From assembly GCF_902506655.1 (NCBI RefSeq), contig NZ_LR734808.1:186001-250000 (forward strand): a DNA stretch of 64,000 nt. Reading direction: 5' to 3'. This document shows positions 20,576 to 35,852 of this stretch, one piece after another. The notes beneath the pieces were generated by a model. It was not told the DNA's origin, did no database searches, and saw only the letters and a list, made by a program, of their open reading frames with translations. The DNA comes from Marinoscillum sp. 108 (lineage in GTDB: Bacteria > Bacteroidota > Bacteroidia > Cytophagales > Cyclobacteriaceae). The translations under genes were made by a program, and so were the position numbers. Numbering within the stretch: position 1 is the first letter of the stretch; each line of letters starts with the position of its first letter.

Positions 20576-21889
20576 ATGAGGAATAGACGTATTTTGATCG
20601 TTACATATTATTGGCCACCAAGCGGGGGAGTGGGAGTACAGCGCTGGCTGCATTTTGCCAGGAACCTAAAGGAAATGGGTTGGGAGCCAATTGTTTATAC
20701 CCCGGAAAATGCACAATTTGATATTCGTGATGAGAGTCTCTTAGAAGACTGCAAGAATATTTCTGTAATAAGAAGAAAGATTTGGGAGCCCTTCACTCTT
20801 TTACATCAACTCACAGGAAATAGAAATCGAAATGCCATAAAACAGGGTTCTGCTCTGGAGAAATCTGACAAATCGTGGAAGGAGCAGTTAATCATTTGGA
20901 TACGCGGCAATCTATTTATACCGGATCCCCGGCTTTTTTGGGTACGACCTTCGGTAAGGTTTTTAAAAAAGGTGATTCTGGAAAAAGAGATAGAAACAAT
21001 TATTACTACAGGCCCGCCCCATTCCATGCATCTTATTGGACTCGGTATAAAGACTGGCTTACCTCAAGTCCAATGGCTGGCAGATTTTAGAGATCCCTGG
21101 TCTGATTGGGATCTACTGGACAAACTGAAAGTTGGAAGATTAGCAAAGTTCTTCCATAGATGGTTGGAAAACAAGGTCTTGAGGCGGGCCAATAAGATCC
21201 TTGTGACTTCCTCAGGTACTGCAAACCTGATGTTTAAAAAACATAATATAACTGCCGAGGTGATCACCAATGGAATAAATGAAACCTATGATTACCTCGG
21301 GAAACCGACTTCTTTGGCGGGTAAATTTGTTATTGGTTACTTTGGTATGCTGAATGAGGTGAGGAACCCGAAGGTTTTCTGGCAGGCATTAGAAGAGTTG
21401 TGCGAAGAGGATTCTACCTTTTTGAATTCCCTTGAAATTAGGATTGGTGGGATTATCAGCGAGAGCGTGAGCGATGAGTTGCAAGGCTATAAATTTGCCG
21501 AAAACATAAAATTCATGGGGTATTTACCCCATGGAAGTCTTTTTGAGGAATACACAGAATGTGACCTCCTCCTTCTCCTACAGAACAAGTCAGAAAACTC
21601 CAAATTTCTTATTCCGGCAAAGTTTTTTGAATATCTAGTGGCTGGCAGACCTATTTTGGGTTTAGGAGAGGTGCCCAGTGATTTAAGTGAGCTATTTTCG
21701 AACAGACAAATTGGTGTGTTTCTGTCGCACTATTCGTTCAATGAGATTAAGGAATTTTTAAGAACAGTTAGATCTGGCATTGAGAGCAATAAGGAGGATT
21801 ACATAAAACTGATAAGTCTGTACTCAAGAACCAATCAGGCTCGGAAACTGATACAGCTGCTAGAAACACAAATGGGTACAGAAACATGA
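20576..21889 (+). CDS. Glycosyltransferase, GT4-like
   Basis: A 437-residue GT-B-fold enzyme, first gene of the plus-strand glycan island. The N-terminal half opens with a Rossmann strand and glycine-rich loop (ILIVTYYWPPSGGVGVQRW) typical of acceptor domains in GT4-type enzymes. The C-terminal half carries KFVIGYFGMLNEVRNPKVFW and the donor-site segment IPAKFFEYLVAGRPILG, where the Glu before YLVAGRP fits the conserved retaining-GT glutamate. No signal peptide. Donor and acceptor unknown. Its stop overlaps the next start by four bases (ATGA). Confidence 0.85.
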   Translation: MRNRRILIVTYYWPPSGGVGVQRWLHFARNLKEMGWEPIVYTPENAQFDIRDESLLEDCKNISVIRRKIWEPFTLLHQLTGNRNRNAIKQGSALEKSDKSWKEQLIIWIRGNLFIPDPRLFWVRPSVRFLKKVILEKEIETIITTGPPHSMHLIGLGIKTGLPQVQWLADFRDPWSDWDLLDKLKVGRLAKFFHRWLENKVLRRANKILVTSSGTANLMFKKHNITAEVITNGINETYDYLGKPTSLAGKFVIGYFGMLNEVRNPKVFWQALEELCEEDSTFLNSLEIRIGGIISESVSDELQGYKFAENIKFMGYLPHGSLFEEYTECDLLLLLQNKSENSKFLIPAKFFEYLVAGRPILGLGEVPSDLSELFSNRQIGVFLSHYSFNEIKEFLRTVRSGIESNKEDYIKLISLYSRTNQARKLIQLLETQMGTET

Positions 21890-22980
21890 AAATTCCATTT
21901 TTTGATCTCAAGGGGCAGTACAGTCAAATTAAGCATGAAGTAGACGCTGAAATTCAGAAGGTTCTTTCAACGGGTCTTTTTATGGGGGGAGTTCCTGTTT
22001 TGGATTTTGAAAACGCGTTTTCAAAGTTCTTGGGAGCTGAACATTGTGTTTCTTGTGCAAATGGGACCGACGCTTTAGAAGTTGCTCTTAAAGCGCTGGG
22101 AATAGGGAAGGGTGATGAAGTGTTGGTGCCAGCGAATAGTTGGGTTTCCACAGCTGAAGCAGTGAATAATGTAGGTGCAGAGCCTGTGTTTGTAGATGTT
22201 ATCGATAGAGAGCATACTATTGACCCTTACCTGATTGAAGGAGCGGTTAATGAAAATACCAGGGCCATTATCGCGGTTCACTTATATGGATTACCTGCCC
22301 GCATGGATGAGATTCTCCCCATTGCGAAAAAGTATCATTTGAAGGTAATTGAGGATTGCGCTCAGGCTCATGGTGCGAAATTGAAGGGCAGGTCAGTTGG
22401 CACTTTTGGTGAAGTATCAACTTTTAGCTTTTATCCTACTAAAAACCTGGGTGCTTATGGGGATGCAGGAGCCATCATCACCAATGATACACTCCTTGCT
22501 GAGAAAATGCGACGGATTGCCAACCATGGACAGTTGAAAAAGCATGATCATGACCTGATAGGAAGAACAAGCAGGCTGGACACTTTGCAAGCGGCCATTC
22601 TCACCATAAAATTGAACTATCTTGACCAATGGGTCCAAAAGAGAAATCTTATTGCCAATTGGTATGATGCCTATCTAGGGGAGGGAATCGTCCGGCCAAT
22701 GAGCACTACCAATTTTTATCATGCCTTTCATCTTTATGTCATCCGAAGCAAGCATCGAGTGAAACTGATGAAACTTTTTGATGAGCTGGGGATTGGTTAT
22801 GGTATCCACTATCCGGTTCCATTACCCTATATAAAGTCATATTTATACAAGGGGTATCACCAGGAACAATTTCCAGCGGCCACCCTTTTGAGTAAAGAAA
22901 TTATTTCACTTCCATTATATCCAGAGCTAAGTGAGCAGGAGGTTAAATATATTTGTAATCAAGTCAATACAATTGGCTAA
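21886..22980 (+). CDS. DegT/DnrJ/EryC1/StrS-family sugar aminotransferase
   Basis: PLP-dependent aminotransferase acting on nucleotide-linked keto-sugars. The 364-residue protein has Asp157 (VIEDCAQAHGA) and the PLP lysine Lys186 in SFYPTKNLGAYGDAGA. This is the usual aminotransferase for amino-sugar or nonulosonic acid precursors, such as the PseC/LegC step. It is translationally coupled to the upstream glycosyltransferase. No 4,6-dehydratase (PseB/LegB-type) is seen in the window, so its keto-sugar substrate must be made by genes elsewhere. Confidence 0.93.
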   Translation: MKIPFFDLKGQYSQIKHEVDAEIQKVLSTGLFMGGVPVLDFENAFSKFLGAEHCVSCANGTDALEVALKALGIGKGDEVLVPANSWVSTAEAVNNVGAEPVFVDVIDREHTIDPYLIEGAVNENTRAIIAVHLYGLPARMDEILPIAKKYHLKVIEDCAQAHGAKLKGRSVGTFGEVSTFSFYPTKNLGAYGDAGAIITNDTLLAEKMRRIANHGQLKKHDHDLIGRTSRLDTLQAAILTIKLNYLDQWVQKRNLIANWYDAYLGEGIVRPMSTTNFYHAFHLYVIRSKHRVKLMKLFDELGIGYGIHYPVPLPYIKSYLYKGYHQEQFPAATLLSKEIISLPLYPELSEQEVKYICNQVNTIG

Positions 22981-23058
22981 TGGATCAATTTGAAGTATTT
23001 TTTCATGGGTCAAATGAAGGACAAACTCTATCCATATCTAAACCCTAAAACATTGTAA

Positions 23059-23883
23059 ATGAAAATATTGGACTGGAACCCTGGTAAAGACACTTTGCTA
23101 AAGGGGAAAGAGATTGAAGTACATGAGATTTATCATAGTCATTTGGCAAGCCAGGAATTGACGAAAGCTAAGATTCTGAAGAACTCCAAGCGACGGATGA
23201 GAGCCAGATCACTGGAGAAGGCGTTGAGAAAGATTGGCAAGCCGTTAAACGGAAAGGTACTTGAGCTTGGTGCCGGAGATGGTTGGTGTTCGGCCTATAT
23301 GTTGTCCAAATATTATGCTCAATTAAGTGAAATGCATACGATGGAGATTAATTCAGCGGCCATCAATCAATTAATACCAAAGGTTTTTGACGTAGTTGGG
23401 GTGAACACTGAAAAATCGACGCTCATTCATGGGAGTTTTAATAACATTCAACTGGAGAATTATTATGACTATGTCATTGTGATGGGGGCAATTCACCACT
23501 CTAGCAATTTGTATAGGACATTTATGGAGATTCAGAAAGCTTTGAAACCTGGAGGGTGGTTGATCGCACAGGAGCCATATATGGTGGACGATACCATGAA
23601 TTCCTTTTATACCAAACGGCAGAACAAGGTAGATAATTTTAAAGGGCTGACTGAGGTCAGGAATGGTGATAGGTCAGATATTTTTTTCAGGTCTTGCGAG
23701 TATCGGGCAGCAGCCTTTCATGCAGGGTTCGATTATCAGACTTTCGGAATTCCTGATTTATCACTTTGGTATTTTAAAAGGGCTCTTTTGGGGCAGAATG
23801 TTGGAAGGCCTAAGAATATGACTATTTATGCTCAGAAACCCCTTACGGGACTTCAATTACCAACTCCCACGGGATGGGAGTGA
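23059..23883 (+). CDS. Class I SAM-dependent methyltransferase
   Basis: A 274-residue Rossmann-fold methyltransferase. The AdoMet loop VLELGAGDG is at residues 67-75, an acidic motif II lies in MHTMEINSAAI, and motif IV resembles VIVMGAIHHS. It sits in the glycan island 78 bases after the aminotransferase, so O- or N-methylation of a sugar is the likely role. Substrate unknown. A basic N-terminal helix (KNSKRRMRARSLEKALRK) may contact the acceptor. Confidence 0.82.
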   Translation: MKILDWNPGKDTLLKGKEIEVHEIYHSHLASQELTKAKILKNSKRRMRARSLEKALRKIGKPLNGKVLELGAGDGWCSAYMLSKYYAQLSEMHTMEINSAAINQLIPKVFDVVGVNTEKSTLIHGSFNNIQLENYYDYVIVMGAIHHSSNLYRTFMEIQKALKPGGWLIAQEPYMVDDTMNSFYTKRQNKVDNFKGLTEVRNGDRSDIFFRSCEYRAAAFHAGFDYQTFGIPDLSLWYFKRALLGQNVGRPKNMTIYAQKPLTGLQLPTPTGWE

Positions 23884-23896
23884 AAAAGAATGAACT

Positions 23897-24655
23897 ATGA
23901 TGAATCAAGAACATTTTACAGTAGCTGATTTAAGTATTGATCAGGTGGTTGCTAAACTTGAGGAGTTTGGCTTGGTGGTGATTCCGAATTATCTGGGAGC
24001 TGATGATGTGGAAAAACTGTTTAAAGAATTTTATGAGTTTACCGAAACGGAGGATACACCGTACAAAAAGAATACTCCCTATTCTGAGGGAGTAGCCACC
24101 CGGGTAAAGCGTTTGGAGATGGATACGGAGAGATTCAAAAAAACGGAGGAAGTTTTTGGTTCGCAATTCATGAGAGAGATCACGGATAAATATTGGAGTA
24201 AAGAGGCTGGCTTAAATGAAGAGATCTTTGTGGTGAAAGATGTGCTGGGTAGTAAGCATGTTGCAAGTGATTTACACTTTGATGTTAAGCCTACACTCAA
24301 GTATTTTATTTACCTCAATGATACCACGGCTGAAAATGGGGCATTTAGCTGTGTGCCAGGATCTCATAAGGTGACACATAAACTAAGACAGAAGCATCAA
24401 GGAAAACTGAGTTATAAAAACCGGGAGTTAACCAGAGAATTGCCCGTGAGTGAAGAGGATGTGATACCTATTGAGGGAAGGGCGGGAACCCTTATCATTT
24501 TTTCCACAGAAGTGTTTCACAAAGCCGGGAACATTACCAAAGGAGAACGATATGTAATGAGAGGTCATAGTCGGACAGCGGAGCAGGATAGGATGGGTGA
24601 CACCACAGGACCATTTGAGCACCTGAAACGTAAGCTCAAATCTTTTCTTCGTTGA
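23897..24655 (+). CDS. Phytanoyl-CoA dioxygenase (PhyH) family protein
   Basis: A 252-residue non-haem Fe(II)/2-oxoglutarate oxygenase. The iron facial triad is visible as His127-x-Asp129 (SDLHFDVKP) and His208 (TEVFHKAGN). A conserved Arg in ERYVMRGHSR probably binds 2-oxoglutarate. PhyH-type enzymes in glycan clusters hydroxylate or oxidise sugars or acyl groups; here the substrate is unknown. It follows the methyltransferase by 13 bases, in the same unit. Confidence 0.85.
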   Translation: MMNQEHFTVADLSIDQVVAKLEEFGLVVIPNYLGADDVEKLFKEFYEFTETEDTPYKKNTPYSEGVATRVKRLEMDTERFKKTEEVFGSQFMREITDKYWSKEAGLNEEIFVVKDVLGSKHVASDLHFDVKPTLKYFIYLNDTTAENGAFSCVPGSHKVTHKLRQKHQGKLSYKNRELTRELPVSEEDVIPIEGRAGTLIIFSTEVFHKAGNITKGERYVMRGHSRTAEQDRMGDTTGPFEHLKRKLKSFLR

Positions 24656-24806
24656 GCGGTGTTGATACGATCAGATCACGGAGATATTGTGAATGGACAC
24701 GATTGAGGGAAGAGTAATTTGGTGATGCTCAGCTCATCGAAAAGCCTGAGAAACCAAAGAATCTAATTTGAAATATTTAATTTCGGCCCTCGTAGATCGA
24801 AATAGA

Positions 24807-24823
24807 CACCTCTTTCTGAGGTG
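24807..24823. repeat. Small hairpin upstream of the NeuB fusion gene
   Basis: CACCTC and GAGGTG arms (6 bp) around a 5-base loop, 20 bases before the start of the NeuB-type gene in the 187-bp gap after the PhyH gene. A second weak stem ATTTCG/CGAAAT precedes it. No T tract follows, so a leader structure is possible but unproven. Confidence 0.3.
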
Positions 24824-24842
24824 GGATGACTAAATAGTAGAG

Positions 24843-27095
24843 ATGATCATAGATAGGAATATTTATAAGTACATTATTTATCAGGAAGAGACTATTCATA
24901 ACTCTCTAAAAAAAATTAACGAGCAGAAGGGTAGGATCCTTATCGTGGTGTCAGAGCGTGATATTGTGATGGGAGTAGCTACCAATGGAGACATTTTGAG
25001 GTGGCTGGTAGAAAATGACATGCCAGACCTTGGGCAGCCCATTTCCAGTATCGCCAATTCTAAATTTAAATTTGTTCGGGATACTGATCATCCGTCCAGA
25101 TTTCAGGAACTTTTGAAGGAAGTAAACTTCTTGCCTTTACTCAATGAAAGCAAGCAGTTACTCGGAGTGGTGCGGAAAGACCACCCTGCGGAGGGTATCG
25201 AAATAGGTAGTCATCACATTGGTAAGGGCCACCCTAGCTTTGTGATAGCCGAGATAGGAAACAACCATAATGGTGACATCTCTCTAGCCAAACAGTTGGT
25301 AGATGCTGCGGCATCAGCTGGGGCCAGTTGTGCTAAGTTTCAGATGCGAAACCTGAATTCGCTCTATGCTAATGCCGGAAAGGCAGATGATATAAAGGAA
25401 AATCTGGGATCTCAGTATACTTTAGACTTGCTTTCTAAATTTCAATTATCAAACGAGCAGCTGTTTGAGGTGTTTGATTACTGCAAGCTGAAAGGAATAT
25501 TACCCTTGTGCACACCCTGGGACACAGAAAGTCTGAATGCATTGGAAGAATATGGCATGCCGGCATACAAAGTTGCTTCTGCGGATTTGACTAATCACGG
25601 TTTACTACGCCAATTGGCCCTGACAGGAGTGCCTATTATCTGTTCTACAGGTATGAGTATTGAAAGTGAGATTATCGAAACCGAAAATCTACTTCAAAGC
25701 CTTGGTGTGCCGCACGTGATGCTGCACTGTAATTCCACTTACCCCGCGCCATTTGGAGATATTAACCTCAATTATCTTCACCAGCTGAAAGAGATCGTAA
25801 ATTGTCCGGTTGGATATTCTGGCCATGAGCGTGGTATTCATGTTTCTATTGCCGCCGTGGCCCTCGGAGCCCAGGTAATTGAGCGACACATTACCCTTGA
25901 CCGCACAATGGAAGGTAGCGACCATAAGGCAAGCTTGCTCCCAAAGGAGTTTGCAGAGATGGTGAAGGGAATCAGGGAGGTGGAGGAAAGTCTCGGAGCG
26001 AGGGAGGTGAGAAAGATTTCTCAGGGAGAGATGATCAATAGGGTCAATCTAGCCAAGAGTTTGATCATCAACCAACCCCTCAAAAAAGGAGAGTTGATTG
26101 AGGAACATATGGTTGAAGTGAAAAGTCCGGGAAGAGGATTGCAACCCAATTATCTCAATGCCCTAGTAGGTAAGAGAGCAAAGCACGATTTTAATCAATA
26201 TGACTTTTTTTATCCCAGTGATATCGAAGAGGAAGAGGTAGTGAAGAGGTCATATAAGTTCAATCGTCCTTGGGGCATCCCAGTAAGATATCATGATTTC
26301 AAAGAGATTATAGAAGGGACAAATGCAGACCTGGTTGAATTCCACCTGAGTTATAAAGATTTGGAGGTGGATATTCGGCAGTTCGTTGACGAACAACTGG
26401 ATTTGGATTTTGTAGTTCATAGCCCTGAATTATTTGAAGGTGATCACACCCTTGACCTTTGTTCTTTGGACGAGACATACAGGCAGAGGTCTATCGAAGA
26501 ATTACAGAGGGTAATAGAGGTCACCAAGCAATTACGACCATATTTTAAGCGGTCGGTAAAACCCTTAATCGTTACTAATGTAGGGGGATTTACAAGTCAG
26601 GGGTTTCTGACTGAACAGGAGCGTATCAAACGAATGAGGATCCTGGAGGCTAGCCTGAAAGAGTTGGATACAGAAGGAGTTGAATTGATCCCTCAAACCA
26701 TGCCTCCATTTCCCTGGCATTTTGGTGGACAGCAGTATCATAATTTGTTTGTTTCGGCTGGAGAAATCGCCGATTTCTGTCAGCGGAATGATATGCGAAT
26801 TTGTTTGGATACTTCTCATTCTAAGCTGGCGTGTACCCACTACAAGTGGTCTTTTCATCAATTTTTAGAAGAAGTGGTGCCTTATACTGCCCATATGCAT
26901 TTTGCTGATTCTGAAAATACCGGAGGTGAAGGATTGCAGATTGGAGAGGGCGAGGTGGATTATCATGCCGTTGGAGAAGTGATTAACAGGTTAAATCCCA
27001 ACGCTTCATTCATTCCGGAAATATGGCAGGGTCATGAAAATAGGGGTGAAGGATTTTGGATAGCGCTCGAACGGCTTGAGCATTTGATCAACTGA
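24843..27095 (+). CDS. CBS-NeuB-SAF-TIM barrel fusion, nonulosonic acid synthase-like
   Basis: A 750-residue multidomain enzyme. Residues ~1-118 form a CBS-domain pair like those in some nonulosonate enzymes (PtmE-type). Residues ~128-385 are a NeuB/SpsE-type PEP-condensing synthase with FVIAEIGNNHNGD, PLCTPWDTESL, CNSTYPAP, VGYSGHERG and the metal-binding stretch IERHITLDRTMEGSDH. Residues ~400-460 are a SAF antifreeze-like cap that normally closes the partner active site. Residues ~470-750 are a xylose-isomerase/AP-endonuclease-2-like TIM barrel with LDTSHSKLA and HMHFADSENTGGEGLQIGEG metal-ligand patterns. It probably condenses a hexosamine-type sugar with phosphoenolpyruvate. The barrel could epimerise or isomerise the substrate, which would replace a separate NeuC-like step. 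The exact product is unknown. Confidence 0.88.
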   Translation: MIIDRNIYKYIIYQEETIHNSLKKINEQKGRILIVVSERDIVMGVATNGDILRWLVENDMPDLGQPISSIANSKFKFVRDTDHPSRFQELLKEVNFLPLLNESKQLLGVVRKDHPAEGIEIGSHHIGKGHPSFVIAEIGNNHNGDISLAKQLVDAAASAGASCAKFQMRNLNSLYANAGKADDIKENLGSQYTLDLLSKFQLSNEQLFEVFDYCKLKGILPLCTPWDTESLNALEEYGMPAYKVASADLTNHGLLRQLALTGVPIICSTGMSIESEIIETENLLQSLGVPHVMLHCNSTYPAPFGDINLNYLHQLKEIVNCPVGYSGHERGIHVSIAAVALGAQVIERHITLDRTMEGSDHKASLLPKEFAEMVKGIREVEESLGAREVRKISQGEMINRVNLAKSLIINQPLKKGELIEEHMVEVKSPGRGLQPNYLNALVGKRAKHDFNQYDFFYPSDIEEEEVVKRSYKFNRPWGIPVRYHDFKEIIEGTNADLVEFHLSYKDLEVDIRQFVDEQLDLDFVVHSPELFEGDHTLDLCSLDETYRQRSIEELQRVIEVTKQLRPYFKRSVKPLIVTNVGGFTSQGFLTEQERIKRMRILEASLKELDTEGVELIPQTMPPFPWHFGGQQYHNLFVSAGEIADFCQRNDMRICLDTSHSKLACTHYKWSFHQFLEEVVPYTAHMHFADSENTGGEGLQIGEGEVDYHAVGEVINRLNPNASFIPEIWQGHENRGEGFWIALERLEHLIN

Positions 27096-27100
27096 GGGGT

Positions 27101-27865
27101 ATGAACAAATTATCGAAAGTGGTTAGGCTGGGGCTTAACAAATTTATGAACTACAATCGGCCGGCAGGTTGGTTTTTTTTGAACTTTGTGCGGGTATTTC
27201 GTGCTGGAGGTTGTGAGTTTAACTTGTCAGAAAATCTATTTCCAAGTGGGTATTACTCTCGATTTCTTTTCAAGACTTACGAGAGTCCGGAAATCGCTTT
27301 GATGAAAAAATATTTAGACCCTGGAGATTCGATCATCGAACTTGGAGCTTGTATTGGGGTTGTTTCCTGTATTTCTAATAAAATGTTGGACCATCCCGAG
27401 AATCATGTGGTGGTTGAGGCTAATCCAGACCTGATAACGGAAATAGAAAAAAACAGAGCAAATAATCACTGCCACTTTTCACTTGAAAACGCACTCATTT
27501 CTAATCAGGCGTTCGAAACTTTTTACACCTATAATATTGCTATATCTGGATCATTGCAAAAGAAGGTGCATAATCCAAAGCTGGTGTTGTCCAGAGAGGT
27601 TCAGGTAAAAGGTGTGGGCTTTGAAAGCTTACAGGCCAAATATGGGTTGAAGTTTAATGTTCTTCTCATGGATATAGAAGGAGCAGAATATACTTTGATA
27701 GAAGAGAATCTTGAGTTTTTGAAAGGTTTGCGGCTTTTGATCATCGAGTTTCACCCTAATATTATGGAGCATCTTGATACAGAAAAGTATCATCGGTATT
27801 TGGAGGAAATAGGTTTTGAGTTCGCTGAGAAAATTGAAAAGACAAGTGTTTATATCCGATCATGA
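27101..27865 (+). CDS. FkbM family methyltransferase
   Basis: A 254-residue AdoMet-dependent methyltransferase. It has the binding loop IIELGACIGVVSC near residues 84-96, VVEANPDL, and the FkbM signature LLMDIEGAEYTLI. FkbM enzymes usually O-methylate sugars. It starts five bases after the NeuB fusion gene and overlaps the next start by four bases, so it is co-translated with the CMP-sugar synthetase. Methylation of the nonulosonate-like sugar or a neighbouring residue is likely. Confidence 0.88.
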   Translation: MNKLSKVVRLGLNKFMNYNRPAGWFFLNFVRVFRAGGCEFNLSENLFPSGYYSRFLFKTYESPEIALMKKYLDPGDSIIELGACIGVVSCISNKMLDHPENHVVVEANPDLITEIEKNRANNHCHFSLENALISNQAFETFYTYNIAISGSLQKKVHNPKLVLSREVQVKGVGFESLQAKYGLKFNVLLMDIEGAEYTLIEENLEFLKGLRLLIIEFHPNIMEHLDTEKYHRYLEEIGFEFAEKIEKTSVYIRS

Positions 27866-28578
27866 TGAAAAATTTGGCTATTATTCCTGCCCGTGGAGGG
27901 TCGAAAAGATTACTTAAAAAAAATCTGAGGTTGCTCAATGGGAAGCCATTGGTTCAGTATACGCTGGAGGCGGTAGTTGATTCAGGAGTATTTGATACGG
28001 TCATATTGTCTTCAGATGACGATGATATTCTGGGTATTGCGGGTAACGTAAAAGGTGTGACCCCTCAAAAGCGGGAGGCTGAGATGGCCACAGATAAGCG
28101 GAAAGTCATCGATTTGATCAAGGATATTGCTGAGCGTGATGAAGTAAAGAATACCTTTGATACCATTGGGTTGTTCTTACCTACTTGTCCGTTTCGGACG
28201 GCCAGGCATATAAAGGAAGGGTTTGCCTTATTGACGAGGGAAGATTATTCCGTGGTAAGTATTACTGATATGTCTGATCCGGTTCAGCTCACTCTGTCGA
28301 TGAATGATGAGAATTTGATCAACCCTGAAGCTGTTTTAAGTCCTTCACCACTGGTGACCGGGCAGACGCGATCTCAGGATTTTGAGAAAATATATAGAGT
28401 CAATGGTGGTTTTTATATTGCATGGCTCGATAAATTCAGACAAAAAGCAAATTTTTTCGATGGCCGGGTGAAAGGATATTATATAGATAAATTGCACTCC
28501 GTAGATATAGATTATGAGTTGGATTTTGAATGGGCAGAATACCTCCTCAGAAAAAATCACCTCTCACTGAAGGATTGA
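27862..28578 (+). CDS. CMP-nonulosonate (acylneuraminate) cytidylyltransferase
   Basis: Activates a nonulosonic acid to its CMP form. The 238-residue protein opens with the nucleotide-binding motif IPARGGSKRL at residues 8-17, followed by KNL and the SSDDDDI segment; the substrate loop FLPTCPFRTARHI corresponds to LQPTSPLR in NeuA-like enzymes. The C-terminal acidic Asp motif is present as VDIDYELDFEWAE. Two adjacent Met codons (27862 and 27865) are possible starts, the first overlapping the FkbM stop. With the NeuB fusion it defines the core nonulosonate module. Confidence 0.9.
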   Translation: MMKNLAIIPARGGSKRLLKKNLRLLNGKPLVQYTLEAVVDSGVFDTVILSSDDDDILGIAGNVKGVTPQKREAEMATDKRKVIDLIKDIAERDEVKNTFDTIGLFLPTCPFRTARHIKEGFALLTREDYSVVSITDMSDPVQLTLSMNDENLINPEAVLSPSPLVTGQTRSQDFEKIYRVNGGFYIAWLDKFRQKANFFDGRVKGYYIDKLHSVDIDYELDFEWAEYLLRKNHLSLKD

Positions 28579-28652
28579 AATAAATCCAAGGATGATTTCA
28601 AAGTGATTTTGAGACGTGATAATGATTAAACAAACTTTTTTATAGTAAAGAA

Positions 28653-29609
28653 ATGAACAACAAACTGATTGATTTGAAGAATAGAATACAGGGGCCTGTG
28701 TACTCTGTAATGACCCCTTTTCTGAAAAACGAGGAGATAGATTTTCTGTCTTTGGAAAATTCCCTTCAGAGAATATACGATGGGGGTGGACGAATTTTCT
28801 ATGTGATGGGATACAATAGTAGATTCAGTGAGTTGTCATGGGAGGAAATAAGGCTCCTCAATAGTTTTGTTACTCAAAAAGTGAAAGCCATCGACTCTAA
28901 CAACATCATGATTGTGGCGGATCCCCTTCACTGCTCTACGAAGATATCCATCGAATTTGCTCGTCATGCACAGGAGATTGGGGCTGATTTGATTTCTATT
29001 ATCAATAGGGAGAAATTTTACTCAGAAGAGCAGATTTACAGGCATTACAAGATGATTGCCGATGCGGTAGATATTGGCATATTGGTGCATGAAATGCCCT
29101 TTTTGAATGGGTATGGCGGTCCTGTTGTTAATTGGCCAATTTCTCTACTGGATCGTGTGGTTGATATTCCCAATGTGATTGCAGTGAAGGAAGATGCCAA
29201 GGATGATGCTTTCTCCAAGCAGGTGATAGAAAAAATAAAGGATAGAGCGGCTATTATTATCTCCGGAGGAGGTAAGCGGCAATGGCTGCAGTTTGCCGAG
29301 GTGGGGTGTCAGTCATGGCTCAACGGCATAGGGGTATTTGATCCTCGTCTGGCGTCCAAGTTTTGGGAATATTATCAAGCCGGAAACAAGGAGGCTTACA
29401 TGAGAATTATCAATGAGATTGAAGTTCCCTTTTTTGAAAAAGGGGTGAAGAAATATGGTTGGCATTTGACCATCAAAGCGGCCATGGAGGCCCTGGGCGT
29501 GATTCACCGATATGAAAGGATGCCGTTGATGGAGTTAGGAGCAGAGGAGGCTATGGATGTAAAAAGATTGATTGAATCACTGCCGGTTGACGAGGTTGTT
29601 TCCCAATGA
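28653..29609 (+). CDS. Divergent DapA/NanA-family Schiff-base lyase
   Basis: A 318-residue TIM-barrel protein of the dihydrodipicolinate synthase/N-acetylneuraminate lyase family. The Schiff-base lysine appears conserved as Lys179 (NVIAVKEDAKD). The catalytic tyrosine of the usual YN(V/I)P motif is replaced: VHEMP puts His146 there. The GTTGE carboxylate-binding loop reads GYNSRFSE at about 53-60. It could be a pyruvate aldolase/lyase with altered substrate, or a non-catalytic relative. It lies in the nonulosonate island between the CMP-synthetase and a glycosyltransferase-like gene, so it may act on the 2-keto acid sugar. Product not predictable. Confidence 0.82.
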   Translation: MNNKLIDLKNRIQGPVYSVMTPFLKNEEIDFLSLENSLQRIYDGGGRIFYVMGYNSRFSELSWEEIRLLNSFVTQKVKAIDSNNIMIVADPLHCSTKISIEFARHAQEIGADLISIINREKFYSEEQIYRHYKMIADAVDIGILVHEMPFLNGYGGPVVNWPISLLDRVVDIPNVIAVKEDAKDDAFSKQVIEKIKDRAAIIISGGGKRQWLQFAEVGCQSWLNGIGVFDPRLASKFWEYYQAGNKEAYMRIINEIEVPFFEKGVKKYGWHLTIKAAMEALGVIHRYERMPLMELGAEEAMDVKRLIESLPVDEVVSQ

Positions 29610-29624
29610 TTGGTTTTTTAGCAA

Positions 29625-31088
29625 ATGAGCGTTGGCGAAAAGGAGTTATATGAGATCGTTGTAGATATTGAACACAGGCATCCGGTAAATGACTGGGTGT
29701 ATGGTGGTATAGAACTATGGCCTCTAATGCGCAGTAGCCTCAGGGATTCTTTTTTGGTCAATCAAAGGCGGCTGGCTTCAAAAAAAAAGAAACAACCATC
29801 TCTTAAGCTTAACTTTTCCTCTTTTTTTCATTCTTTTAAAACATTCAGATCCCTAAGAAAAAGGGATCTGATGATTTTTACGAGTACTTCTGGTCATGCT
29901 GATAGGAGAGAGGATAAGCTGTATGATAGAGTAGCAGATCCGGTATATGAGTTCATGGCTAATCGCTTTGGTTGGTCTGCCACTAAAGTTTCAAATGGAA
30001 AGAGGGTTTCTGATGTAGAAGGCTTTTTTCCTATGAATTTCCTGGATCTCAGGTTGTTTGCTAATCCGGTGAAATACCTCAGGCATCAGAAGAGATTTAC
30101 AAAATACCTTGCTTCAATTGAGGCAACTGATGAAATCGAATCAAGAAGTGGCCTTGCCATTAAAAGTCTTTTGATCAAATCGGTGTGCTTTATTTTAGCT
30201 TCAGAGCAGAGTGCGAAGGCTATTTTGAAAAGGGCAAACCCAACTTTAGTTGCGTTTGTATGCTATTACCACAATGTAAATTTTGCGTATTTGAATGCGG
30301 CTAAATCTCTGGCGATTCCGACCATAGATATACAGCATGGAAAACAGGGTGTTTACCACCTGATGTATGCACATTGGGGCCAAGTGCCAAATAACGGATA
30401 CCGCATGGTTCCCGACTTTTTTTGGAATTGGGGCGAAAGTTCAAAACTCAACATTGAAAAGGGAAGAAACAATTTGCAGCAACATCAACCAGTGGTGCTT
30501 GGAAATCACTGGCTGATCAACTGGAAGAAAAATAAGGCAGAAAGGGAATCTCCTCAATATCGCAAGCTTCTTGATTCTTATAGTACGGTGGTGCTTTTTT
30601 CCCTTCAGCAGGATATGGAAATCCCCATCCCGGATTTTGTGTTGGATGAGATTCAGACCCAAAAGGATGTTTTATGGCTTTTTAGACTTCACCCTGCTCA
30701 AAAGATTGGAAACGCCAAAGTCCTCAAGTCGCTGGCTGATTTGAAGGTGAGCAACGTTGAGATTCACGAATCATCCAAATTGCCTCTTTATCAGATAATC
30801 GAGCATGTTCATTTGCACCTCACCAACTGGTCTTCTGTATGCATAGAAGCTTTGAATTTTGGTGTTAAGAGTATTATAGTACACCCAAATGGGTACGATC
30901 TATACGAAGAACTGATAAATACTGAGCAGTTTTTTTACGCAAAGGACTCCTCCGACCTCTGCATGGCTATGGATAAGATAGCAGCTGATGCAGGGCAGGT
31001 GGATGCGTCTGATCATTTTCTGATGGATATGGAGGTTATAGAGCGACGAGCCTCTCAACTTTTTCTTGAGGGAATGTCAAGACGGTGA
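29625..31088 (+). CDS. GT-B-like surface polysaccharide transferase (candidate CMP-sugar transferase)
   Basis: A 487-residue protein with no close family recognised. It has hallmarks of the capsule/KDO/sialyl transferase superfamily: IDIQHGKQGVYH in the middle, LFRLHPAQK, and THxSSxxxEA-like LTNWSSVCIEALNFG near residues 400-415. These match the HxGK, RxHP and SS motifs of GT-B inverting transferases that use CMP-activated acids. An N-terminal Lys-rich stretch (ASKKKKQPSLK) may bind membrane. Last gene of the plus-strand island, 15 bases after the lyase. Role as the transferase for the CMP-nonulosonate is inferred from motifs and context. Confidence 0.65.
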   Translation: MSVGEKELYEIVVDIEHRHPVNDWVYGGIELWPLMRSSLRDSFLVNQRRLASKKKKQPSLKLNFSSFFHSFKTFRSLRKRDLMIFTSTSGHADRREDKLYDRVADPVYEFMANRFGWSATKVSNGKRVSDVEGFFPMNFLDLRLFANPVKYLRHQKRFTKYLASIEATDEIESRSGLAIKSLLIKSVCFILASEQSAKAILKRANPTLVAFVCYYHNVNFAYLNAAKSLAIPTIDIQHGKQGVYHLMYAHWGQVPNNGYRMVPDFFWNWGESSKLNIEKGRNNLQQHQPVVLGNHWLINWKKNKAERESPQYRKLLDSYSTVVLFSLQQDMEIPIPDFVLDEIQTQKDVLWLFRLHPAQKIGNAKVLKSLADLKVSNVEIHESSKLPLYQIIEHVHLHLTNWSSVCIEALNFGVKSIIVHPNGYDLYEELINTEQFFYAKDSSDLCMAMDKIAADAGQVDASDHFLMDMEVIERRASQLFLEGMSRR

Positions 31089-31130
31089 TCCCGAAATTTG
31101 CTTGATTTGATGTGGTTCCGATACTCTAAA

Positions 31131-31877
31131 TTATTTTTTCTCTAGAATGCGAATCGCAGCTCGAATGTATTTGCTTGTGTTTCTGTCTTTAGATCTTGGT
31201 TCGCAAAATGAAATAAATTGATATGTCCATCTGGGATCGATACATTCCATGAGGGCTTTATATTCATTGTCTCTCCAGCCCGGATAGCCAAGTAATTCAT
31301 CAAAAACAATAATACTTCCCGGCTGAAGATACTCTACAGTTTGTTCGAAAATAACCTTTGTGGGACTATAGGTATCCATATCAATGTGCATGAAGGCTAT
31401 TTTGTCAGCTTGTAGCCCATTGTTTTCAATAAAGGGTGGTAAGGTTTTATCAATCCAGCCTTTGATAAGCACCACGTTATCATTGACTCTCGGTAAATTT
31501 CCTTTCAAATCAAATGTTGATTTTACCATAGATGTACCTGACCAGTCCTCAGATAATCCTTCAAATGAGTCAAATCCATAAATCTTACGTTGATCCTTTT
31601 TTTCTAAAAGGACTTCACTAAAAAAGTTGATTGAATCTCCTCTAAAGACACCAAACTCTAACAAAACACCCTTCATCGGGATATGACTCAGCGCGTGTGT
31701 CCAGAATTTATCTTTGCGATCCAGAAGCACGGCACCAGCACCTTGTTGGTGGATTATTTGAGCACTTTCTCTGTAACTGATCTGATCTAATTCATAGAAG
31801 GTTTTTCGAGAATTGGTGGCATTGAAAAACACGAAATGGCTGATTCTATCAATCGATTGTATGATTTTTTTGATCAT
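31131..31877 (-). CDS. TylF/MycF-like O-methyltransferase
   Basis: A 248-residue class I AdoMet-dependent methyltransferase of the macrocin O-methyltransferase (TylF) type. It shows GVLLEFGVFRGDSINFF as the AdoMet loop, KIYGFDSFEGL, and the metal-binding acidic pair in FMHIDMDTYSPTK. Such enzymes methylate hydroxyls on sugars in glycan clusters. It is the last gene of the minus-strand Wzx-YfhO-TylF group, 47 bases after YfhO, and converges on the plus-strand island. Confidence 0.87.
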   Translation of the reverse strand: MIKKIIQSIDRISHFVFFNATNSRKTFYELDQISYRESAQIIHQQGAGAVLLDRKDKFWTHALSHIPMKGVLLEFGVFRGDSINFFSEVLLEKKDQRKIYGFDSFEGLSEDWSGTSMVKSTFDLKGNLPRVNDNVVLIKGWIDKTLPPFIENNGLQADKIAFMHIDMDTYSPTKVIFEQTVEYLQPGSIIVFDELLGYPGWRDNEYKALMECIDPRWTYQFISFCEPRSKDRNTSKYIRAAIRILEKK

Positions 31878-31924
31878 TGCAATAATTTAATTAAGACGAG
31901 GTTTGGAAAAATAAGCCGGATAGA

Positions 31925-34357
31925 TCAGAGAGATGATTTACGTCGCTCCATCCAAATCCCTCCTATAAAAAGAAGGAAAACCAATACCTCGCCCACAATA
32001 GTTAATGTGTTTCCGGCGTAATAACTTGTCGGTTCGAAAACAAACCTGATTTCATGCGTTCCTTTTTCCAGGGGAAGTGCTCTGAGGATGTAATTAACCC
32101 TGAGAATTTCGGCTTCCTGATCATCGATGTAGGCCTTCCACCCCTTTGGATAATATATTTCACTGAACACAGCAAGACTTTTACCAGAGGTCTGAGTAGT
32201 ATATTTGATTTCATTCGGTGTTCTGCTTAGCAATTTCACCGTTCCGGTAGCTCCGGCTATTAGATTTGGCGGAGAAAATTTGGAGCCATCAATGACTGCA
32301 GTTCGGGATGGGTTGATGCCACACACCTCAGAAAGTTCTTCATCTGCCGACGCCACTTCCTTTAAGTTGGAGACGATCCACCCATTGCCTAGTGATCTTG
32401 AATTTGAAATGACTGCATTTTTTGAAGATCCAGCCAGAAAAAACCGTGTGTTGAGCATGTTGAGTACCGGAGTATTGGGCAACTGGGAACCTCCGGATTG
32501 CAGAACATTGATGGTTTCCGACATTTCGGCCTGAATACATGCACTTATGAGGTCTTGATATCTGCGCATTTTGGCTCCATGGTACCCTCCAATGGATTCA
32601 TGATGGTAAGAGGTTCTGGCCTCATTGAATGGGTTCTGAAGGTTGAGCACACGCTCACCAGAAGTTGCTATGCTCCTAATATAAAGATCAGCTTCGGTAG
32701 GCTTAAAGTATGTTTTTACAGGTCTGTTCTCAAAAGAATCCTTGTTGAGAAAACGCTTTGTAAGGCTGAAGATGTCCACAAAGAGTAGTAATATGATCCC
32801 TGAAATGATCAGTACGGATTTGAGTGAATTTTTCCAATAGGCCCATATAAGCCCCGAAAATGCCAGTATAAAAAAGAGAGCCTTTAGGGCATCAGACCTC
32901 AAAAGTGATTCCCGATCGCTTCTGAGGGCATCTATCAGCCATTCTGGCAAGCGAGCATCTATACTGCCTCGGTAACTCAATGCACCTGCTGCTATCACAA
33001 GTAAAAGAGCTGTACCCCCGCAAATAGCAACTGACCAAAGAAATTTTTTCCTGAAAGCTTTATCGGACATTCCGGTCAACACCCTTTCCAGAGCCATAAA
33101 ACCCATTAAATTAATGGACAGGAGGGTCATGCAAATCGCGAAGGTAACCGACCTGAATTTGTTGTACATCGGGAAGTGATCAAAGAGGAGATCATTCAGC
33201 AAGGTGAAGTTGCTACCCCAACTAAGTACAATTCCGATGAGTGCTACCACAATCAACCATGTTTTGGTTCTCCGATCCAAAACGAAAATACCCAGTACGA
33301 ATAGGAAAAATGAGAGCGCTCCGGCATAGTATGGAGCAGTCAATGGTTGGTCACCCCAATAGGTGGGCATGGCTTTGAGTTGATCTCTTAGTTGCTGCCC
33401 GTTGTATCCTGCTTGTCGCAGGGCACCAGCAGTTGCCGATTGTGTACTGAGCTCTTGACTAGATGAACCACCATAGATATTAGGGATAAAGAGGAATAAG
33501 GGCTCCAGAATTCCGTTGCTGTAACGAAAAGCATACTCTTTATCCAAACCAGAAGATTCTTTGCTTTCATCTTTGAGTTCTGACTTTCCTCTGATGCTGT
33601 ATTTACTGTATTCGTAAACGGTCCAAAGTTTTCCTGAATTGGCACCAACGGCGATGCTTGCAGCCAATATCAGCCCGGCAAGGGTGAGGAGCAGAGATTT
33701 TATTTGGTGGTCTTTCCAGAAGTAATAGAGCTGGAATACACCATAAACCAACACTGTAATGAGTAAATAGTAAGTGATTTGTGGGTGGTTCATATAAATC
33801 TGCATGGCCAATCCCAGAGAAGTAAGTCCTATACCTAAGTATTTTTTTCTGGTAAAGGCAAGGTGTATTCCAGCAAGCACCAATGGAGCGAATGCCAGAG
33901 CTGCAATTTTGGAATTGTGACCAGCAGTGAGACTAATGATATTGAACCCATTGAGACCAAAGGCAATGGCCCCTGCAAAAGCAACCCAAGGCCGCACACC
34001 GAAGGACAGGAGCATAATATACGAGCAAATAAAGCAAACCAGTGTAATTCCCTCCGGGTTGGGAAGGCCAAGTTTGAAAATCTGATAAACATAGGTGAGG
34101 ATGTCTCCTGGAAACTGGACACTAGTGAGATAGGCTGGCATCCCACTAAACATTGCGTTATTCCAAAGGGCCTCTTCTCCAGTCTCAGCTCTGTATTCTT
34201 TGAGCTGATAATTACTGCCCAGGCCTTGCAGAATATCATGTTGAGCCAATTGTTTGCTTTCGAAGAAAAATGGAGCGTAAACGATGACCGTTACGATGAA
34301 AAATCCCAGAATGATAGCTCCGTGGGTAAGAATTGATCTTTTAAGGTTATTTGTCAT
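31925..34357 (-). CDS. YfhO-like polytopic membrane protein
   Basis: An 810-residue membrane protein with about 13 hydrophobic segments, mainly in residues 10-560, followed by a soluble C-terminal region (~560-780) and a last membrane helix. The N-terminal GSNYQLKEYRAETGEEALWNN and the extracytoplasmic layout fit the YfhO family. This GT-C-like family includes proteins needed to glycosylate lipoteichoic acid in Firmicutes. In a glycan island the likely role is lipid-linked sugar transfer outside the membrane. It begins one base after the flippase stop. Confidence 0.82.
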   Translation of the reverse strand: MTNNLKRSILTHGAIILGFFIVTVIVYAPFFFESKQLAQHDILQGLGSNYQLKEYRAETGEEALWNNAMFSGMPAYLTSVQFPGDILTYVYQIFKLGLPNPEGITLVCFICSYIMLLSFGVRPWVAFAGAIAFGLNGFNIISLTAGHNSKIAALAFAPLVLAGIHLAFTRKKYLGIGLTSLGLAMQIYMNHPQITYYLLITVLVYGVFQLYYFWKDHQIKSLLLTLAGLILAASIAVGANSGKLWTVYEYSKYSIRGKSELKDESKESSGLDKEYAFRYSNGILEPLFLFIPNIYGGSSSQELSTQSATAGALRQAGYNGQQLRDQLKAMPTYWGDQPLTAPYYAGALSFFLFVLGIFVLDRRTKTWLIVVALIGIVLSWGSNFTLLNDLLFDHFPMYNKFRSVTFAICMTLLSINLMGFMALERVLTGMSDKAFRKKFLWSVAICGGTALLLVIAAGALSYRGSIDARLPEWLIDALRSDRESLLRSDALKALFFILAFSGLIWAYWKNSLKSVLIISGIILLLFVDIFSLTKRFLNKDSFENRPVKTYFKPTEADLYIRSIATSGERVLNLQNPFNEARTSYHHESIGGYHGAKMRRYQDLISACIQAEMSETINVLQSGGSQLPNTPVLNMLNTRFFLAGSSKNAVISNSRSLGNGWIVSNLKEVASADEELSEVCGINPSRTAVIDGSKFSPPNLIAGATGTVKLLSRTPNEIKYTTQTSGKSLAVFSEIYYPKGWKAYIDDQEAEILRVNYILRALPLEKGTHEIRFVFEPTSYYAGNTLTIVGEVLVFLLFIGGIWMERRKSSL

Positions 34358-34358
34358 A

Positions 34359-35852
34359 TCAGATTTTGATATTTAGGTATTTCTTAAAGATGGATTTAAC
34401 AAATGAGTTAATGTCCCTGGAAATATTGAATTTGTAAATGAGTATTCCATAAAACGTACTAATTAAAGCAGATTTCCCCACGATGTTCAATACTGGACTC
34501 TCCCAGATCGATACAAAATAGAAGAGGAGCATTGTGCCAAAGCCAATTAGAAGGAGCCAGATGTGGTTTTTTGTAAACAAGGAAATCTTTAAGTGCCTGA
34601 CGATATAATAATGCTTTAGCAAATTAAAGAGAATTGTGGATACCAGAAAGGCAATCCCGGCACCATTGATCCCTATCGTTGGCAACAATGTAAGGTTCAG
34701 AATACAGAGAACAGCAACGGACAACAGGAGGAAGTAAACATTCACCCTGTAATGCTCAGAATAAGCCAGTATGTTCCCATTCAGCCCAAAGAGCATATCA
34801 AAAACTTTGGCAAAACTTATGGCCATTACCACATACAGGCCCTGAGAGAATACCTTCCCATTTGGGATCATCAGGAATAGGTCCTCGATGTTACATACTA
34901 TGCCAATCAGGAATAGAAATCCAATGCATCCCAAGGTAAGTGAGCTTCTCTGGTATAGATTCTCGATTTCTACGTAATTTTTATTTTTGAACTCCCTGGA
35001 TACTACCGGTGCTGTAATCATCAGCACTGCTCTATTGGGTAGTTCTATGATAATCCCAATGTAAAAGCAGGTGGTGAATATCCCATTTGACTCAAGTCCA
35101 ATCAATGTAGTAATCAAAAGAAAGCTAATATTGGTATATATAGAGTTTCCTGCAGAGGCGGCGAGATTGTATATGGAGTAATTCCAGGTTTCTGCTATCC
35201 ATTTTTTCATGCTTGTCCATGAGAACAAACTCATTTTGAAGTTCTGATTAATAAGAACATGCATTGCTTCTATTATGGTAGCTGATATGTAAACGAGCGT
35301 CAGGCCTTTGACCGTATCACCAAAATCAATCAAGTTGGCAGCATATAGGCAAATGAGCAAGGCATAGCCAATTCTGAGATAAATATCCTTTAAGATGGCA
35401 GGAACAACGATATCCAAAACCACCCTGCTGTATGATTGCAGTTGAATGAAAAATGTCTGGCTGACCAGAATCATCAGACTCAGGAAAATGTACTCGTTGT
35501 ATGCCGCGGATTTCTTTTCAAAGACGGACTTAATGTCATCGGTGAAAATGAAAAATAGTAGTGCTCCGAGAATGTTAGCAAATAAGATCAGATAAATCTG
35601 GTTACTTAAAAATGATCTTCTCCTGGCTTCATCTTTTTCTACGTGGGGATAGTATTTGACCAGGGTAGAGGGCATTCCAAGGCAAATAAAAGGGGCAATC
35701 AAAAGTGCATTATTCACTACAATATTAAGTAGCCCAATTTGCTCAGGATCCAAATATTTGGGTCGGAGATAAAGGGCGTTGAGGTATCCGATTACTACCC
35801 CGACGTATGCAAATACTGACCCCCAAAAACTCTGTCTGATGACTACACCCAT
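34359..35852 (-). CDS. Polysaccharide flippase, Wzx/MATE-like
   Basis: A 497-residue integral membrane protein with about 12-14 helices, the fold of the MOP superfamily that flips undecaprenyl-linked oligosaccharides. The N-terminus IRQSFWGSVFAYVGVVIGYLNALYL is typical of O-antigen translocases. It is first in the minus-strand Wzx-YfhO-TylF group, and it supplies the export step for the sugars made by the plus-strand genes. No Wzy polymerase was recognised in the window. Confidence 0.9.
   Translation of the reverse strand: MGVVIRQSFWGSVFAYVGVVIGYLNALYLRPKYLDPEQIGLLNIVVNNALLIAPFICLGMPSTLVKYYPHVEKDEARRRSFLSNQIYLILFANILGALLFFIFTDDIKSVFEKKSAAYNEYIFLSLMILVSQTFFIQLQSYSRVVLDIVVPAILKDIYLRIGYALLICLYAANLIDFGDTVKGLTLVYISATIIEAMHVLINQNFKMSLFSWTSMKKWIAETWNYSIYNLAASAGNSIYTNISFLLITTLIGLESNGIFTTCFYIGIIIELPNRAVLMITAPVVSREFKNKNYVEIENLYQRSSLTLGCIGFLFLIGIVCNIEDLFLMIPNGKVFSQGLYVVMAISFAKVFDMLFGLNGNILAYSEHYRVNVYFLLLSVAVLCILNLTLLPTIGINGAGIAFLVSTILFNLLKHYYIVRHLKISLFTKNHIWLLLIGFGTMLLFYFVSIWESPVLNIVGKSALISTFYGILIYKFNISRDINSFVKSIFKKYLNIKI

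Follow-up and report, generated by a model that had tools for sequence, protein, structure and literature searches.

The glycan island at positions 20576-35852 of the window (the 64,000-nucleotide stretch of Marinoscillum sp. 108 analysed here; contig NZ_LR734808.1, positions 186,001 to 250,000) raises the question of which acid sugar it makes. An initial annotation had listed there an incomplete, non-standard set of nonulosonic acid genes and predicted an oxidised, multiply methylated product whose identity is not obvious. We propose that the nine-gene + strand operon of this island (20576-31088) probably builds and activates an acid of the 2-keto-3-deoxynononic acid (KDN) type, with a hydroxyl rather than an N-acyl group at C5, and afterwards modifies it for use in a surface glycan. 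The NeuB gene holds the main clue to the substrate. A strong NeuB-type synthase is present as annotated, but its fusion with a CBS pair and an additional triosephosphate isomerase (TIM) barrel of the AP_endonuc_2 family had been overlooked, and this fusion changes the meaning of the 'incomplete' enzyme set. The gene and its parts are as follows:

24843..27095, + strand: fused ulosonate synthase of 750 residues (CBS pair, NeuB, SAF, TIM barrel)
24843..25178, + strand: N-terminal CBS pair, residues 1-112 (CBS 5.6e-05, below the Pfam cut-off; KpsF CBS region matched)
25197..26012, + strand: NeuB catalytic barrel, residues 119-390 (PF03102, 4.2e-81)
26058..26222, + strand: SAF (antifreeze-like) domain, residues 406-460 (PF08666, 1.9e-06)
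26124..26126, + strand: codon of S428, at the position of Arg314 of N. meningitidis NeuB (by alignment)
26262..27092, + strand: ketose-3-epimerase/isomerase-like TIM barrel, residues 474-750 (AP_endonuc_2, 2.1e-22)

The AlphaFold2 model, built on an alignment of 62 relatives, has a mean predicted local distance difference test score (pLDDT) of 91 for the full-length fusion; the CBS pair, possibly a nucleotide-sugar sensor, is modelled with high confidence. Residues 117-462 of this predicted model superpose on Neisseria NeuB (2wqp; Z 38.8, root-mean-square deviation (rmsd) 3.0, 340 residues aligned), and by alignment and conservation the catalytic residues E137, K165, Q167, K243, S326, H328, E347, H349 and D360 are all kept. 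The protein scores below the cut-offs of both the N-acetylneuraminate synthase model TIGR03569 (321.8 bits, cut-off 399.65) and the PseI model (244.4 bits, cut-off 340.25). Because the full-length fold search was swamped by NeuB matches, the C-terminal barrel was folded alone (pLDDT 92.4). Its best match is 3wqo (Z 24.9, rmsd 2.6, 243 aligned), and it resembles the D-tagatose, L-ketose and D-psicose 3-epimerases (Z 22-25, rmsd 2.5-3.1, approximately 240 aligned) at 15-20% identity, 18-20% for the best rows. Xylose isomerases and endonuclease IV come next in the ranking (Z approximately 22), so the fold indicates the sugar-isomerase superfamily and not one particular reaction. Candidate residues for the Glu-Asp-His-Glu metal site of these epimerases are E614, D656, H659, H684, H686 and E726, which are invariant or nearly so, and the D..H and H..D stretches of the barrel align with 3wqo, at the level of alignment rather than of a residue-level structural superposition.

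The most direct clue to the substrate lies in the SAF domain. In Neisseria NeuB, Arg314 extends from this domain to the N-acetyl group of N-acetylmannosamine (ManNAc), and the R314A variant is inactive (PMC6795526). The corresponding residue is Ser in 62 of 63 fusions and Cys in the remaining one, vs Arg in 31 of 33 ordinary NeuBs, the latter comprising 27 from the phylum (26 with Arg) and six others from the loci (five with Arg, the sixth with Lys). The lone non-Arg sequence among the 27, L126, is itself another fusion with Ser at this position; it is a 600-residue protein of a different Bacteroidota genome, with its NeuB part at approximately residues 253-589. Further family-specific residue changes are found in the NeuB domain of the fusions. 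With its catalytic residues retained and Arg314 replaced by Ser, the window enzyme is expected to be an active synthase whose sugar lacks a 2-N-acetyl group.

KDN is made from phosphoenolpyruvate (PEP) and mannose or mannose 6-phosphate (PMC6200933). In Serratia marcescens KL1 and KL2, the capsule locus devotes two genes, neuA and neuB, to sialic acid synthesis, removal of neuB abolishes sialic acid, and neuB carries an extra isomerase domain, COG1082, its UMH9 open reading frame (ORF) being 2241 bp long (PMC9000132). The capsular sialic acid of these strains is KDN, which exceeds N-acetylneuraminic acid by approximately 20:1 (PMC9000132; also PMC12077157). The fused neuB of Serratia proteamaculans (L060) is exactly 2241 bp and follows neuA; upstream of the pair are ORFs of 379, 144 and 715 residues, sizes consistent with wza-wzb-wzc. 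The window likewise has a PF03102 NeuB with a C-terminal isomerase/epimerase domain in an ORF of approximately 2.24 kb, a CMP-transferase gene (CMP, cytidine monophosphate; 27862-28578) close by with an FkbM gene between the two, and no NeuC or PseG in the genome. The residue evidence at Arg314 and the published Serratia chemistry thus agree on KDN. Several points weigh against this reading. The likeness to S. marcescens is drawn from the published description, the ORF length and the congeneric L060. KDN is known as the product for Serratia alone, whose enzymes fall on another branch of the NeuB tree and in a different NeuA clade than those of the window. Human NANS makes both kinds of acid, and loss of Arg314 is not obligatory for KDN synthesis elsewhere. 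Finally, part of the fusion family may use a heptose, as considered below for two Bacteroidota loci.

If the product is of the KDN type, the steps that seemed to be missing are needless, since the KDN core requires no NeuC, PseB/C/H/G or acetyltransferase and Serratia, whose locus has just neuA and neuB for it, makes KDN; the description of the enzyme set as incomplete was therefore probably wrong. The absences themselves hold up and reach further than the window. In the host genome, 99.7% complete at 5.2 Mb, a PseG search that was positive in five of 14 control genomes gave no match at E 0.001, and there are zero matches to Epimerase_2, hence no NeuC, LegG or WecB. Only one strong NeuB is encoded; two other NeuB matches are weak (approximately 31 bits) and lie in frames of 335-369 residues, the size of 3-deoxy-D-arabino-heptulosonate-7-phosphate synthases. 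No PseB/LegB dehydratase occurs in the island, in line with the annotation, and a single PseB-like gene lies far off in a glycosyltransferase cluster on another contig (contig 4; L099, 8887-9843) and scores below the cut-off (251.7 bits, cut-off 407.75). Among the NCBIfam models the window NeuA is nearest to PseF (144.7 bits, cut-off 205.7). A complete pseudaminic (Pse) or legionaminic/neuraminic (Leg/Neu) acid set elsewhere in the genome was considered and rejected, there being no PseG, no Epimerase_2 and only the sub-cut-off PseB-like gene, so the view of the locus as non-standard survives the genome-wide search. The genome also encodes the catalytic domain of a type I phosphomannose isomerase (PF20511; PF01238 alone missed it).

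The fusion occurs in many phyla. A single scan across genome contigs recovered 80 fusion loci at 49-63% identity, most of them over the whole length, from Cyanobacteriota, Bacteroidota, Bacillota, Pseudomonadota, Actinomycetota and Spirochaetota, as well as Campylobacterota, Bdellovibrionota, Myxococcota, Thermodesulfobacteriota and SAR324. Across 83 loci, several of whose contigs end early, the sole widespread neighbour is a CMP-sugar transferase gene (61 loci), usually directly upstream of the fusion, and no NeuC, PseB, PseC or PseG neighbour cluster recurs. Of 49 fusion-bearing whole genomes, four have a NeuC that passes its cut-off, 11 have such a PseG and 14 have at least one of the two; the other 35 have neither above cut-off. 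Some of the 49 are incomplete metagenome-assembled genomes (MAGs). Searches of plasmids found the full fusion in Ensifer canadensis alone, and the E. coli genomes searched contain no DNA resembling the Serratia fused neuB. In Nitrosomonas and its relatives (L078, L079, L083, L088, L090, L091) the fused NeuB gene is divergent from genes for NeuA, a Gfo/Idh/MocA-like protein and a short-chain dehydrogenase/reductase (SDR)-like protein; an SDR and a Gfo/Idh-like gene are also found near the NeuB-barrel gene of L098. In the phylum of the host, the barrel part of the fusion has a strong match in just this genome and two distant ones of 296, and it is absent from all seven listed members of the host's own family; this sparse occurrence indicates that the locus was probably acquired. 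The G+C content of the island is 41.6% vs 45.8% in the rest of the window, and the flanks are housekeeping genes (miaA, phosphofructokinase, TauE).

The operon, whose intergenic gaps are -4, 78, 13, 187, 5, -4, 74 and 15 bases, is followed by three convergent genes on the - strand. Every gene type named in the initial annotation was recovered at its place as an intact ORF with a significant family match. Besides the fused synthase, the genes are:

20576..21889, + strand: GT4-family glycosyltransferase, operon gene 1 (Pfam Glyco_transf_4, 4.6e-07)
21886..22980, + strand: DegT/DnrJ/EryC1 aminotransferase, C3-type, of the QdtB/DesV/WbpE group (Pfam, 1.5e-108)
23059..23883, + strand: S-adenosylmethionine-dependent methyltransferase (Methyltransf_23/11)
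23897..24655, + strand: PhyH-type Fe(II)/2-oxoglutarate oxygenase (PhyH, 5.9e-16)
27101..27865, + strand: FkbM-type methyltransferase (TIGR01444, 1.7e-14, above cut-off)
27862..28578, + strand: CMP-ulosonate synthetase of a distinct clade, NeuA' (CTP_transf_3, 1.2e-19; clade support 99/98)
28653..29609, + strand: aberrant DapA/NanA-superfamily enzyme, DapA' (DHDPS/DapA match)
29625..31088, + strand: putative glycosyltransferase of 487 residues (no Pfam match; BFO_1060, 2.8e-07, below cut-off)
31131..31877, - strand: TylF/Methyltransf_24 methyltransferase, convergent neighbour (family match)
31925..34357, - strand: YfhO-like membrane protein, convergent neighbour (family match)
34359..35852, - strand: Polysacc_synt flippase, convergent neighbour (family match)

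The DegT protein has its best PDB matches in 7b0d (351 bits), QdtB 3frk (333 bits) and WbpE (286 bits) and is nearest to the C3 nucleotide-sugar aminotransferases QdtB, DesV and WbpE, not to PseC. A search with PF05523 found no FdtA/QdtA-type ketoisomerase partner for it, and DegT may, by its sequence affinities, act in the synthesis of a different sugar of the glycan.

Tailoring of the acid is suggested by a second set of genes that travel together. The NeuA' clade unites the window with L018 (uncultured Flavobacteriales), L045 (Cycloclasticus), L067 (SAR324), L084 (Bdellovibrionales) and L096 (an Epsilonproteobacteria MAG). A homologue of DapA' is encoded in four of the five partner loci (63, 59, 54 and 32% identity), the fifth contig ending inside NeuA', and in none of 49 other NeuA-bearing loci (Fisher p 1.6e-5, the loci being not fully independent); the DapA' and NeuA' genes lie side by side or almost so. 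Three of these five loci, and none of the 49, also have a PhyH relative. In the NeuB tree, five of the six loci form one group with L020 (support 94), with L096 placed elsewhere. Remote homologues of the 487-residue protein are found in L067, L084 and L096 and also in L048. An SGNH-like protein with a GDSHVRAF motif stands beside PhyH or is fused to it in L018 (1490-2746), L045 (8281-8949) and L096 (1325-3277). A DapA-like gene at E 1e-40 was found in this genome only among 395 of the phylum, and plasmid searches returned no close DapA'. DapA' keeps the Schiff-base lysine K179, but the catalytic Tyr has become His146 and the GTTGE pyruvate-binding motif reads GYNSR; S56, R57, H146, K179 and E180 are invariant among six homologues. 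The putative iron ligands H127, D129 and H208 of PhyH and its 2-oxoglutarate arginine R218 are likewise invariant among six homologues.

The same genes occur on viral contigs of IMG/VR. The fusions of L132-L134 are without CBS, and in L132 (8025-16372) a DapA-like gene comes immediately after the fusion, while NeuA and PhyH lie farther along. L137 (7512-11352) has NeuB-like, DapA-like, NeuA and PhyH genes in a row, the DapA-like gene adjoins NeuA in L138 (8986-10638) and L139 (8986-10615), and L135 (7346-14513) carries a NeuB-barrel gene and PhyH. The DapA-like proteins of L137-L139 are 43-48% identical to that of the window. On L132, L135 and L137-L139 these genes lie among many glycosyl- and methyltransferase genes, an arrangement that suggests phages encoding their own tailored ulosonate pathway; a PHROGs search gave no matches. 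The DapA'-NeuA' unit, often accompanied by PhyH and present on several viral contigs as well as in six bacterial loci, looks new, and no description of it turned up in the literature searched.

The position of the DapA' gene beside NeuA' suggests action on the free keto acid before CMP activation. We tentatively propose a new ulosonate step between NeuB and NeuA', in which DapA' remodels the free keto acid through a Schiff base and, together with PhyH and the methyltransferases, might give an undescribed CMP-activated acid sugar in distant bacteria and phages; C4 epimerisation by retro-aldol/aldol chemistry and dehydration are guesses at the reaction. In the pathway as a whole, the NeuB domain would join PEP to a mannose-type aldose (the free sugar or its 6-phosphate) that the fused barrel may make or deliver from a ketose, and the CBS pair may sense a nucleotide or the CMP-sugar. 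DapA' would then engage the C2 ketone of the ulosonate, PhyH would hydroxylate, at least one of the methyltransferases would O-methylate the sugar, and NeuA', on this scheme specific for the remodelled acid, would make the CMP sugar, which may be transferred by the 487-residue protein or the GT4 enzyme. A CMP-activated, probably oxidised and methylated nonulosonate remains the best reading of the product, its identity still not obvious, as annotated, although the enzyme set that makes it is probably complete.

The alternative that survives best assigns DapA', PhyH and the methyltransferases to other sugars or carriers in the glycan, leaving the nonulosonate as plain KDN. It would fit the mixing of genes for several sugars in surface-glycan operons and the mostly DapA'-, PhyH- and methyltransferase-free state of other fused-NeuB loci, but the close tie of DapA' to the NeuA' clade, extending to viral contigs, and the difference between NeuA' and the NeuA of plain KDN loci argue against it, and we regard it as rather unlikely. 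Use of a heptose such as D-glycero-D-manno-heptose, free or phosphorylated, to give a ten-carbon 3-deoxy-ulosonic acid is improbable. In the Bacteroidota loci L097 (7831-12408) and L098 (7749-12299), a NeuB-barrel protein without CBS is encoded immediately between a CBS-fused GHMP kinase (HddA-like) and an SIS isomerase (GmhA-like), with an HddC-like nucleotidyltransferase (NTP-transferase) upstream, and a heptose-fed ulosonate pathway is possible there; loss of Arg314 equally suits a heptose with a C2 hydroxyl. However, these two loci form a long separate branch of the NeuB tree and their heptose genes could feed a separate sugar of the same glycan, no such genes lie in the window island, no heptose-type neighbour cluster is shared by six or more of the 83 loci, and the Serratia product is the nine-carbon KDN (PMC9000132). 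That a standard Pse, Leg or Neu is made, with the missing steps supplied by unrecognised enzymes or by imported ManNAc, is very doubtful: the distant PseB-like dehydratase, the DegT gene and a NeuA nearest to PseF could be read in its favour, but PseG and Epimerase_2 are absent from the genome, the N-acetyl-binding Arg is Ser, the synthase does not reach the cut-off of either the NeuB or the PseI model, sequence likeness places DegT among the C3 aminotransferases and apart from PseC, and the PseB-like gene lies in a glycosyltransferase cluster of a different contig.

A KDN-type acid, tailored or not, would matter beyond this organism, as predictions of Neu, Leg or Pse are routinely based on genes of the NeuB type. 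A widespread class of fused NeuB that most likely makes KDN, and that can be told by its additional barrel and by the Ser aligned with Arg314, would call for different predictions in cyanobacteria, nitrifiers, Bacillota and many proteobacteria. In the DapA'-NeuA'-PhyH unit we see signs of a tailored ulosonate that is still undescribed and of a role for the DapA fold that is absent from the literature searched, in which, with few subscription journals covered, there was also no paper on the mechanism of the fusion or on a DapA-like step in nonulosonic acid synthesis.

Compared with known systems, the window barrel shares the fold of D-tagatose/D-psicose 3-epimerases and differs from them by its low identity, and DapA' has the fold family and Schiff-base lysine of DapA and N-acetylneuraminate lyase in common, without their Tyr and GTTGE. 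With Neisseria NeuB and Campylobacter PseI the window synthase shares the NeuB barrel, the SAF domain and the catalytic residues; unlike them, it has Ser for Arg314, other family-specific changes and extra domains at both ends. The KDN-9-phosphate pathway of Bacteroides thetaiotaomicron (BT1714) and Prymnesium parvum, compared by description only, also leads from PEP and a mannose-type sugar through KDN to CMP activation without steps from uridine diphosphate N-acetylglucosamine, using a separate synthase, phosphatase and CMP-KDN synthetase, with no fused CBS or barrel described (PMC6200933). From S. marcescens KL1/KL2 the window differs in its NeuA clade, in having DapA', PhyH, methyltransferases and DegT, and in lying outside a wza-wzb-wzc context; what the two have in common is a NeuB with an extra domain (COG1082 in Serratia), one CMP-transferase and a locus in which no NeuC- or PseG-type step is described.

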